From NCBI GenBank assembly GCA_946478235.1, contig CAMLBF010000005.1, positions 62,001-126,000 of the forward strand: 64,000 bases of DNA. The letters are read 5' to 3'. This DNA is from an uncultured Bartonella sp. GTDB taxonomy: Bacteria; Pseudomonadota; Alphaproteobacteria; Rhizobiales; Rhizobiaceae. The stretch's first letter is position 1; the number at the start of each line of letters is the position of its first letter. The notes under the pieces were generated by a model that did no database searches, had not been told where the DNA came from, and worked only from the letters and a program-made list of their open reading frames with translations. This document shows, piece by piece, positions 42,499 through 46,402 of the stretch. Position numbers and translations under genes: made by a program.

Positions 42499-43248
42499 AT
42501 GACTGCCTATGCACGGACACTTCTTAAGCAGTCTCATTATGAGACTCGTGAAGGAACAGATTCGGCAATTCTTGCAACTCTTGGATCATTGGAAGCTCGT
42601 GTTGTTGATGCTTCAAACTTGTTGAATGAAACCAGTTGTCAATTGGCTGTCCAAAATGACGTGGATGCTCAATCGGAATTTTTTATTGTTATTACAGAAA
42701 AACAAACGCCTACCGAGATCATGGCGCTATGCCGCATGACTCTTGCCGGGCATATGCATTCGAATAAAAAACTGAAAGCTATTGGTCTTAGTGAACAGCT
42801 GGAAATTGAATTTGGTCAGGCTGCGCCGCGTTTGCTAACAATTGCCCCCTTTGAATTTACCGACAAAAATAAAGCACATCGTGCGCAAGGGCTTTTATGG
42901 CAGGCAATTGCAAGATTTTGCACCTTGAAAAATGTCGATTATGTCATTGGCAGTTTAGCGTTTAATAGTCGCTATCCAGCGGCCCATGCATTGGAGCTAT
43001 CTTATCTTTATCATTTTTGCCGCTCACAATCGGGCGTGCTGGTTAAAGCCAATCATGGGGTCACGATGGATATTATGCCAGAAGAAGCAATACGCCCCAA
43101 TGAAGCCTTTTCATCCTTGCCACCAATGCTGCGCTATTGTTTACGTATTGGTGCCAAAGTGGGTGAAAATGCTATCGTTGACCACTTAAAAAACCAAACG
43201 CGTGTTTTGTTGCTTTTCTCTGCCCGCTCTATTTATGCCAGAAAATAA
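42499..43248 (+). CDS. Divergent OlsB-like GNAT acyltransferase
   Basis: A 249-residue protein. GSLEARVV (29-36), LLWQAIARF (132-140), HALELSYLYHF (163-173) and LPPMLRYCLRIGAKVGENAIVDH (207-229) align in order with ornithine/lysine N-acyltransferase OlsB, which makes lyso-ornithine lipid from acyl-ACP. Two blocks usual in OlsB are not visible: the Arg/Tyr-rich helix after the first strand and the ELGRSCV-like strand, replaced here by LLTIAPFEF (112-120). It may be a changed-specificity or inactive relative. AAAGGAG precedes the ATG. It is a single gene with its own terminator and no olsA neighbour. Confidence 0.6.
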   Translation: MTAYARTLLKQSHYETREGTDSAILATLGSLEARVVDASNLLNETSCQLAVQNDVDAQSEFFIVITEKQTPTEIMALCRMTLAGHMHSNKKLKAIGLSEQLEIEFGQAAPRLLTIAPFEFTDKNKAHRAQGLLWQAIARFCTLKNVDYVIGSLAFNSRYPAAHALELSYLYHFCRSQSGVLVKANHGVTMDIMPEEAIRPNEAFSSLPPMLRYCLRIGAKVGENAIVDHLKNQTRVLLLFSARSIYARK

Positions 43249-43406: not shown

Positions 43407-44171
43407 TCAATTCAACCATTTCTCGGCAAATACGTGATATTCACTGCTCATTGTGGATCGTAACCAGTTATCGACATAACGTTTCCATGTGGCGTCGCCT
43501 TTCGGCAACATATAACCGCGCTCGCCATAAGCTAATATTGGCCCCTTTCCCTTATTCATAAGGCAAATTGTATTGGTTGGATCGTAAAAGTTTGCCAATT
43601 CATCTGTAATTACAACATCGGCTTTTTCATCCATAATATTCTGGCGAATGACATTAATATTATCGAACACTTGCCGTTGCGCATTCGGTAATTGTTTCCG
43701 CGCAAAAGCGTCATTTGCATCACCATCAATCTCGTTTACCCGAACATTTTTGTTATTAAGATCATTAAGCGACCGATACTTATCCGTATCTTTGCAACGG
43801 ATATAAGCAACCTTGCGATCCATCAACATTGCTTCTGTCATATAAACCTGTTGTTGCCGTTCTAATGTTATGGAAATGCCACCCACCGCTATATCGCATT
43901 TATTGGCAATAAATTCTGATACCAGACTTTTCCAACTTATCTGTTTAAATTCGATTTTTGCATCCAAAGATTCGGCCAATGATTGTGCCATCGAGATATC
44001 AAGCCCCTCAAATGTACCGTGCTCTTTGCGCATGGTATAGGGGCTATAATTGCCGGTTGTGCAAACACGTAGTGTTTTGCTTTCCAACACCTTGTCCAAT
44101 GTCGAGGGTTCCGCATAAGCGTTGCCAATCATACAAATAAGTCCAAAGCTCAAGAGAAATAATTTTTTCAT
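43407..44171 (-). CDS. PheC-like periplasmic protein, copy 1 (catalytic Glu replaced by Ala)
   Basis: A 254-residue secreted protein with a signal peptide ending AYA (20) and a solute-binding fold closely matching periplasmic cyclohexadienyl dehydratase (PheC): LDKVLESKTLRVCTTG, DIAVGGISITLERQQQ, YMLPKGDATWKRYVDNWL. Aligned to Pseudomonas PheC from memory, Trp80 and Lys120 match Trp60 and Lys100, but the position of catalytic Glu173 is Ala193 (VITDELANF). It is therefore probably a binding protein or has another activity. The ATG at 44171 has GAGTG upstream; GTG 44180 is an alternative. No ABC permease or ATPase is nearby. Confidence 0.85.
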   Translation of the reverse strand: MKKLFLLSFGLICMIGNAYAEPSTLDKVLESKTLRVCTTGNYSPYTMRKEHGTFEGLDISMAQSLAESLDAKIEFKQISWKSLVSEFIANKCDIAVGGISITLERQQQVYMTEAMLMDRKVAYIRCKDTDKYRSLNDLNNKNVRVNEIDGDANDAFARKQLPNAQRQVFDNINVIRQNIMDEKADVVITDELANFYDPTNTICLMNKGKGPILAYGERGYMLPKGDATWKRYVDNWLRSTMSSEYHVFAEKWLN

Positions 44172-44382
44172 ATTCGGCACACTCTATGGGAAAAATGGTT
44201 TTATAAAATTTTATGCAATTCTTTTCGTTTACGACACAAATGATAAAAATCCACCAGCTGATCTATTCCAGACTTAAGGATATTTACGCAATATAATCTG
44301 CATGCTTAAAAGATTTCATCATGAATAATAAAGCTCGGTTGTATTCTATCCAAAGTGATGATTGCTTCCAGCATATTGAATG

Positions 44383-45159
44383 TTACTGCAACCATTGTTG
44401 TTGAATTTTGTAATAAGCACCGGTTTTCTTGGTAATTCTCAACCATTGGTCAACATATAATTTCCAAGTGTCATCGCCTTTAGGAAGCATATAACTTTGT
44501 TCGCTGGCAAAAAATTCCGTTGAACACAAGCTAGGATAATTGCGCAGCTCATATTCTGCTTGTGTCATGTCGGTAATCATTACATCAGCTTTTTTCTCGA
44601 CGAGATTTTGAAAAATCACATGAACATCATCAAAAGCTTCAATTTTTACACCTTCAGGAGCGGATTTACGGACAATGGCTTCGTTGGTGTCATTTGCATG
44701 AACATTGACTCGGATCTTATCTGGATCCTTGACCGGCTCTTCGTCATAAAACAGCATTTCGTATTTTTCTTTATCTTCACAACGCCCGATTTGTGATAAA
44801 CCTTTCATATCCGTTGCATCAGAAACATAAACTTTTCTTTGCCGCTCAAGTGTTGATGTAATTCCGCCTACGGCAATATCACATTTGCTTGCCACAAAAT
44901 CTTCAACCAAGGTTTTCCAGCTTATTGGAACAAATTCTATTTTTGCATCAAGAGATTGCGCCAAAGACTCCACCATGGCAATGTCTATGCCCTCATAAGT
45001 GCCATCTGCCTTTTTAAAGCTATAAGGTTTATAATCACCCGTAGTGCAAACATGCAAAGTTTTACTCTGCAAAACCTTATCCAAGGTTGATGTTTCAGCA
45101 TAAGCAATTTTGCTGAAAGACATAAAAATAAGCGTTATAAAAAACAGTTTTTTCATCAT
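44383..45159 (-). CDS. PheC-like periplasmic protein, copy 2 (catalytic Glu replaced by Gln)
   Basis: A 258-residue paralogue with a signal peptide ending AYA (21) and the same fold: LDKVLQSKTLHVCTTGDYKP, DIAVGGITSTLERQRK, YMLPKGDDTWKLYVDQWL. Trp81 is kept, but the position of PheC Lys100 is Leu121 and that of Glu173 is Gln200 (MITDMTQAE). It has an insertion after RCEDKEKYEM relative to the other copies. Loss of both residues argues against dehydratase activity. AGAGAT precedes two adjacent ATGs. It stands 211 bp from copy 1 and 243 bp from copy 3, so each may have its own promoter. Confidence 0.85.
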   Translation of the reverse strand: MMKKLFFITLIFMSFSKIAYAETSTLDKVLQSKTLHVCTTGDYKPYSFKKADGTYEGIDIAMVESLAQSLDAKIEFVPISWKTLVEDFVASKCDIAVGGITSTLERQRKVYVSDATDMKGLSQIGRCEDKEKYEMLFYDEEPVKDPDKIRVNVHANDTNEAIVRKSAPEGVKIEAFDDVHVIFQNLVEKKADVMITDMTQAEYELRNYPSLCSTEFFASEQSYMLPKGDDTWKLYVDQWLRITKKTGAYYKIQQQWLQ

Positions 45160-45402
45160 ATCTCTAAAAGTGGTATAAATATTTCATCGTATAAACACAC
45201 AATTCATAAGAGATGAGTTTTCCATTGAATTGGTGTTCTTCTCAAAATACTTCATTTTTTTGCTATTTTTCACTTAAAACAGCAAGAATGTTTCCTTTAT
45301 CAATGTTTGACAATTTCTTGTGAAACAAAGTTTATAATCAATCTCTGTGCATCATAATTGCCAAACTGAAATAGCTATACGAATTTGCAACCCGACGGGC
45401 TA

Positions 45403-46170
45403 TCACTTGAGCCATTCGGCTTGGATAAGATTATACTCGCCATTTTTCTTGGTTAGCCGCAACCATTGGTCGACATAAAATTTCCAAGTTAGATCACCTT
45501 TCGGAAGCATATAAGCCTTTTCCAAAAATAGTAACGGCACATCTGGATTGACGACACATAAGGTTGGGTAATAGCGTTTTTGATAGCGTGCCTCTGATGC
45601 ATCGGTAATCATTACATCGGCTTTCATATCAACAAGATTTTGGAAAATAATCGTGTTGTCATGAAAAAGCTCAAGCTGCGCTTGCGGCATAAATTTATGC
45701 ACGAATGCTTCATTTGTGCCGCCAGCAGGTTCTATAGCACGAACGTCCTTCTGGTTCAGTTTTTCTATCGTATCGTATTTGTCCTTATCTTCACAACGAA
45801 CAAATGGAACTTTTCCGTCGACGTCCAGAGGCTCAGACATATAAGCTTTTTGTTGTCGAGCCAGTGAAATTGAAATACCGCCCATGGCAATATCACATTT
45901 ATCGGCTAGAAAATCGTCCATCAATGTTTTCCACGTTGTTGGAACGAACGTGACTTTCACATTCAATGTCGCAGCAAGTGAATTGGCCATCGAAATATCA
46001 ATGCCCTCATAGGTGCCATCCGATTTACGAAATGTGTATGGTTTATAATCGCCTGTGGTACAAACACGCAAATTTTTGCTTTCCAATACCTTATCCAGTT
46101 TGGAAGGCTCGGCATAAGCGTGTCCCCCTATCATGGAAAAAACTGCCATAAACAGAAATAACTTTTTCAT
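45403..46170 (-). CDS. pheC: Probable periplasmic cyclohexadienyl dehydratase, copy 3
   Basis: A 255-residue protein with a signal peptide ending AYA (20). This copy keeps the residues I recall as catalytic in Pseudomonas PheC: Trp80, Lys120 (DGKVPFVRC) and Glu193 (MITDASEAR). GGTNEAF and FLEKAYMLPKGD also match. The enzyme converts prephenate to phenylpyruvate and arogenate to phenylalanine in the periplasm, a side route to Phe. One PheC active-site Asn (Asn128) appears to be Pro here, so activity is likely but not certain. The ATG at 46170 has GGGGAT upstream. It is the first transcribed of three tandem paralogues. Confidence 0.75.
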   Translation of the reverse strand: MKKLFLFMAVFSMIGGHAYAEPSKLDKVLESKNLRVCTTGDYKPYTFRKSDGTYEGIDISMANSLAATLNVKVTFVPTTWKTLMDDFLADKCDIAMGGISISLARQQKAYMSEPLDVDGKVPFVRCEDKDKYDTIEKLNQKDVRAIEPAGGTNEAFVHKFMPQAQLELFHDNTIIFQNLVDMKADVMITDASEARYQKRYYPTLCVVNPDVPLLFLEKAYMLPKGDLTWKFYVDQWLRLTKKNGEYNLIQAEWLK

Positions 46171-46402
46171 AATATCCCCGACTTGAAACATAACCTCAAT
46201 GTTGGCCTATGATTGTTCAGAAAAGCCAAAAATAATCCAACCGCTGTCAGTATCATTTCAAAAAATGCTGTAACCGACTCTTCAAAAACCTTTTTATAAA
46301 AGAAAATTATCAATTCTGGCTTAACAAACCGACAATAGCGCGAGATTAATTCGGCCTCAAATATACTTATCCCGTTTTGCGCTATATTGAAGCGCTGGCG
46401 CT

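Follow-up and report, generated by a model that had tools for sequence, protein, structure and literature searches.

The emergence of the cyclohexadienyl dehydratase (CDT) PheC from the arginine-binding AncCDT-1 has been studied as an instance of a binding protein that turned into an enzyme. According to the part of PMC7683729 available to us, AncCDT-1 is the reconstructed arginine-binding ancestor of CDT, AncCDT-1 and AncCDT-2 are considered non-enzymatic binders, and a Tyr-to-Gln change at residue 177 helped to reposition Glu173 en route to PaCDT, the PheC of Pseudomonas aeruginosa. The active-site residues of PaCDT are Y22, W60, K100, N128, T132, N133, N152, T169 and E173 (available part of PMC10520331); the same text reports that the substitution E173Q inactivates PaCDT, and that in two fusion enzymes carrying E173Q the CDT activity was not measurable. 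It also describes the CM-CDT fusions, whose exported CDT domain has an unclear role and which in some genomes have substrate-binding and transport proteins placed alongside, and it calls the role of exported CDTs controversial, an enigma. The locus described here resembles these fusions in its putatively exported CDT domains, but no chorismate mutase is fused to any of its three copies. An enzyme standing beside two conserved descendants that lack the catalytic acid would let the opposite step, from enzyme to binder, be measured in extant proteins, and the trio might help to show what exported CDTs are for.

Our analysis covers a 64,000-nucleotide stretch of DNA (the window) from a 2.46-Mb genome of an uncultured Bartonella. 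Three pheC-like genes lie in tandem on the minus strand and are transcribed in the order copy 3 (45403..46191; likely start at 46170, MKKLFLF...), copy 2 (44383..45159) and copy 1 (43407..44180; likely ATG start at 44171); 243 bases separate the first two genes and 202 the last two. Judged by eye, each has a signal-peptide-like N-terminus, followed in copy 3 by the mature domain, and each has one SBP_bac_3 domain over the cut-off. The divergent upstream neighbor encodes a YeiH-family membrane protein (PF03601; 46744..47850, plus strand) and the convergent downstream neighbor an OlsB-like acyltransferase (42499..43248, plus strand); both flank the locus in the nine relatives examined. The NCBIfam ornithine acyltransferase models match the OlsB-like gene well below cut-off, and it has no Pfam hits. 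When the regions upstream of the three copies were compared, no clear common repeat was found, and scans for promoters and terminators gave site counts below the mean of shuffles.

Among the closest described counterparts are the single-copy pheC genes of Bartonella apis (a bee gut symbiont; available part of PMC12661939), B. choladocola and B. apihabitans, whose products are 71-73% identical to copy 3. They share the locus with the trio (yeiH on one side, the olsB-like gene on the other; seven loci examined), and two trio relatives, like 7/7 of the single-copy loci examined (of ten), have the genes arranged as hslU-yeiH-pheC-olsB-like. They differ from the trio in having one copy, with Glu173, and a LysR-like ORF alongside. 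This ORF, of 299-311 aa, lies between yeiH and pheC in all seven (L030-L036) and is LysR-like by eye in the two that were read (L031, L032). It is absent at this place in the trio lineage, and a tblastn search for a LysR remnant in the window, L028 and L029 found none. Loss of the LysR-like ORF may have accompanied the duplication of pheC.

The first-pass annotation had described the trio as PheC paralogues over their whole length, and our comparisons bear this out: each copy aligns with AncCDT-5 and PaCDT along almost the whole mature length. Identity to PaCDT is 48% for copy 3, 39% for copy 2 and 37% for copy 1, and the best PDB matches by sequence are, for every copy, AncCDT-5, AncCDT-3 and PaCDT. 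The AlphaFold2 model of copy 2 (mean pLDDT 91.9) returns the same three as its top Foldseek hits. For copy 1, Foldseek gives TM scores by target length of 0.92-0.94 for AncCDT-1 and 0.88-0.90 for PaCDT; since the binder scores as high as the enzyme, such a search fails to separate the two. From these models, the type-II SBP fold of copies 1 and 2 is predicted to be intact. They would have the same fold as AncCDT-1 and AncCDT-2, and like AncCDT-1 they have no Glu at residue 173.

We compared the active sites in the numbering of mature PaCDT, in which all nine letters fall at the positions stated in the available part of PMC10520331. At those nine positions copy 3 has Y, W, K, P, T, N, N, T and E, keeping eight of the nine, with Pro in place of Asn128. 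Copy 2 has Y, W, L, H, T, N, V, T and Q, and copy 1 has Y, W, K, I, A, N, I, T and A. The residues that the first-pass annotation had singled out therefore read as it said: the Trp60 equivalent is present throughout, Lys100 is lost in copy 2 only, and residue 173 is Glu in copy 3, Gln in copy 2 and Ala in copy 1, HMMER pairwise alignments to AncCDT-5 yielding identical residues in copies 1 and 2. That annotation had numbered from an internal ATG, so that its E193 of copy 3 is E200 of the 262-aa ORF and its A193 of copy 1 is A196 of the 257-aa GTG ORF; the Gln of copy 2 is Q200. Asn152 is also changed in copies 1 and 2 (in copy 1 the change to Ile depends on the alignment, as HMMER leaves that position gapped and moves the neighboring letters over by one), both have D131, and copy 1 has R156 and has lost Thr132. 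In the multiple alignment, copy 2 carries a 5-residue insertion before residue 128. Because E173Q abolishes CDT activity, the Gln of copy 2 is a natural occurrence of an exchange known to inactivate the enzyme. Judging from these residues, copies 1 and 2 have very probably lost CDT activity, and copy 3 would be the member of the trio with CDT activity.

How unusual these losses are can be seen from the conservation of PheC. From a 259-row alignment we removed the eight copy 1 and copy 2 rows, five SBPs of the same genome, three reconstructed ancestors and the divergent row P0207, leaving 242 reference rows, copy 3 included; these are redundant, with 215 distinct by their last 180 residues and 120 at 90% identity. 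Glu173 is present in 241 of the 242 (the last, a 203-aa fragment, is gapped at this position) and in 119/120 of the representatives at 90% identity, the remaining one being gapped. P0207 also has Glu173, as do 10/10 further loci from Bartonella and family genomes, several of which are genomes already among the reference rows. The homologue lists used were the best 120 of 2340, the best 120 of 1851 and 36 of 36, so that more distant PheC proteins without Glu173 could exist. Pro128, the one departure of copy 3, is usual in its branch (178/181 homologues in one alignment; 213/242 reference rows). Among 61 columns conserved in at least 95% of the reference rows, none is changed in copy 3, itself one of those rows, 11 are changed in copy 2 and 18 in copy 1, some of the 18 depending on the alignment (near residue 185, for example, another alignment pairs a Cys of copy 1 with the conserved Cys). 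Compared with the other conserved columns, the active-site columns are not significantly enriched in losses in copy 1 or copy 2 (Fisher p 0.67 and 0.10, respectively).

Another residue of the same region is changed in both copies. Residue 177 is Gln in 238 of the reference rows, Lys in 3 and a gap in 1; it is Asp in copy 1 and Glu in copy 2, and an acid is found there only in these copies and their orthologues, in 0/241 of the lettered reference rows. This raises the idea of a relocated acid, in which E177 of copy 2 and D177 of copy 1 take over from Glu173 and serve a dehydratase or other lyase reaction. Residue 177 governs the pose of Glu173 (available part of PMC7683729), and in the model of copy 2 it lies one helical turn past residue 173 (protein residues 204 and 200, in helix 198-205). 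In the relative L028, moreover, the copy 2 orthologue has His at 173 yet keeps E177. However, copy 2 has lost Lys100 and Asn152 as well, and in the model of copy 1 the stretch after Asp170 is a coil of lower confidence, with no helix. The acid at 177 could be a relocated acid or a sign of shared descent, since it may be common to copies 1 and 2 by descent alone, and we consider its replacing Glu173 in catalysis quite improbable.

The first-pass annotation had also suggested that the enzyme was reverting or diversifying toward binding. A literal reversion to the ancestral binder was tried against AncCDT-1 at 16 positions and rejected: only one of them, Thr80 in copy 2, has regained the AncCDT-1 state by change. 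AncCDT-1 has Q100, Q128, T131, T132, S133, N152, V173 and Y177. At the same positions copy 2 has L100, H128, D131, T132, N133, V152, Q173 and E177, and copy 1 has K100, I128, D131, A132, N133, I152, A173 and D177. Since the changed pocket states, apart from Thr80 in copy 2, are not those of AncCDT-1, copies 1 and 2 would be new binders rather than throwbacks; unlike AncCDT-1 and AncCDT-2, they would descend from an enzyme rather than precede it. We take R85, T132 and D170 to be the head-group residues of the amino-acid binders of this family. Arg85 and Asp170 are kept in copies 1 and 2, and also in AncCDT-1 and in an SBP of the same genome (L001), and Thr132 is kept in copy 2 and replaced by Ala in copy 1. 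Because active PheC keeps all three as well, they do not single out a binder. Taken literally, the reversion part of the suggestion is not supported. The loss of the catalytic acid in two PheC-clade paralogues and the purifying selection described next agree with the diversification part, and diversification into binding proteins is the best reading, with binding itself a putative function.

Purifying selection acts on copies 1 and 2 across three genomes. Among the window and two trio relatives, copy 2 has dN/dS values of 0.03-0.08, copy 3 of 0.07-0.13 and copy 1 of 0.10-0.18. In 9/9 comparisons, which share genomes and are not independent, the synonymous rate is higher than the nonsynonymous one (p 0.0003 to 1.7e-09, for all nine as for the six that concern copies 1 and 2). 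The change before this was fast: from the fork with copy 3, copy 1 has accumulated about 1.4 and copy 2 about 1.2 changes per column, a shared stem of 0.29 included, against 0.16 for copy 3. Such long branches, together with the many conserved columns lost, might suggest that copies 1 and 2 are decaying duplicates. This is very improbable, since the low dN/dS is joined by open frames without a single stop in all three trio genomes. Fast change after duplication followed by present conservation is what one would expect of genes whose function has changed, and the purifying selection on copies 1 and 2 is as expected for a retained role other than CDT.

In the main rival to a binding function, copies 1 and 2 are pseudoenzyme subunits that form mixed trimers with copy 3 and stabilize or regulate it. 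PaCDT is trimeric and oligomerization is thought to aid its activity (available parts of PMC7683729 and PMC10520331), and the three genes are adjacent on one strand, with all of their products under purifying selection. On the other hand, none of the seven single-copy loci examined has a second pheC copy alongside, pairwise identity among the three copies is only 49-55%, and active CM-CDT fusions are predominantly monomeric, so that a trimer is not required for activity (available part of PMC10520331). We consider such mixed trimers unlikely.

The descent of copies 1 and 2 bears on whether they ever were PheC. In the tree, the three copies fall in a 21-row branch (support 96/96) that holds every named Bartonella PheC together with metagenomic rows, which answers a point the first-pass annotation had left to a phylogeny, namely whether the trio belongs to the PheC clade. 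The long branches of copies 1 and 2 meet in this tree, and we therefore removed each in turn, using a quick method and leaving out the outgroup SBPs, P0207 and P0184 as well. Without copy 1, copy 2 joins copy 3 (SH-aLRT 88); without copy 2, copy 1 joins copy 3 and P0003 (SH-aLRT 77); in both trees the remaining copy lies inside an 18-row set at SH-aLRT 99. With four family loci added to a further quick tree, the nine trio rows group at only 54. Two of these loci, from another genus of the family, are 67-68% identical to copy 3 and lie inside the Bartonella PheC branch; they share 96-99% identity with P0079, a row labelled Bartonella sp. HY329. The two more distant loci fall outside the branch. 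From these trees, it is firm that copies 1 and 2 belong to the Bartonella PheC branch; the order of the duplications, and copies 1 and 2 as sisters, are not firm. It has also to be considered that copies 1 and 2 arose separately, as ordinary binders of amino acids that just happen to lie beside pheC, since they have the Pfam family SBP_bac_3 in common with such proteins. With CDTs as their best PDB matches by sequence, and with the trees placing them in the Bartonella PheC branch unless long branches mislead, we give a separate origin hardly any weight. All three copies lie inside this branch, so the trio is a product of local duplication. The branch itself sits among gammaproteobacterial PheC (Erwiniaceae, Pectobacteriaceae, Yersiniaceae, Pseudomonas and Acinetobacter), which suggests acquisition by transfer.

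As to what the putatively exported copies do, the genome encodes elsewhere a homologue of PheA and a single chorismate mutase homologue (PF01817); judged by eye, both lack a signal peptide, so that the trio seems unneeded for phenylalanine synthesis. A search of the genome with the single family PF01817 found no exported source of prephenate. There are nine SBP_bac_3 genes in the genome, and five loci have HEQRo-type permeases over the cut-off, each with its own SBP gene; a search for the TIGR01726 (HEQRo) family found no such amino-acid permease on the contig of the trio. Since the HEQRo loci have their own SBPs and the trio has no such permease nearby, copies 1 and 2 can be read as orphan binders. 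Another SBP_bac_3 gene outside the window (L006; G000:C5:37376-38059) likewise lies on a contig without a HEQRo-type permease.

Based on these findings, we propose the following course of events. In part of Bartonella, a pheC gene that was probably acquired by transfer has yeiH on one side and the olsB-like gene on the other; in one lineage, tandem duplication brought it to three copies. Copy 3 would have stayed a putatively exported cyclohexadienyl dehydratase. Copies 1 and 2 have lost the general acid and other pocket residues and would now be periplasmic proteins without catalysis. Most likely they are solute-binding proteins of the venus-flytrap type whose ligands have changed; relatives of prephenate, arogenate or phenylpyruvate are candidates. 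The bound solute may be handed to a permease or sensor encoded elsewhere. We favor, with moderate confidence, the view that copies 1 and 2 lack CDT chemistry and work as orphan binding proteins of the periplasm, in which binding is the presumed part. Against it count the missing HEQRo-type permease on the contig, the lack of significant enrichment of losses at active-site columns, the stretch without a helix after Asp170 in the copy 1 model and Pro128 in copy 3. A bolder view takes the two acid-less descendants, kept by selection and with the acid at 177 instead of 173, as a case in which binding or a new lyase chemistry was reached by un-evolving an enzyme in a non-ancestral direction; we regard this as rather doubtful. 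The kind of protein is known; the literature searched (CC-licensed PMC papers) held no report of a PheC trio with two acid-less members, and the available part of PMC12661939 names a bacterial pheA2 once but not pheC.

The trio has a narrow distribution. Among 71 Bartonella genomes, 3 have the trio, 10 have one copy and 58 have none. In a draw of 297 genomes of the family, 15 have a match (E up to 1e-40), and more than one match is found only in the source genome. The nearest named relatives at the trio locus are uncultured Bartonella metagenome bins, in a list that may omit records of the source genome itself, and further off are B. choladocola, B. apihabitans and B. apis. Another pheC duplication, which is not in tandem, is seen in Acinetobacter rathckeae, where two pheC loci (L054 and L055) with equal match scores lie about 78 kb apart on one contig, and both have Glu173.
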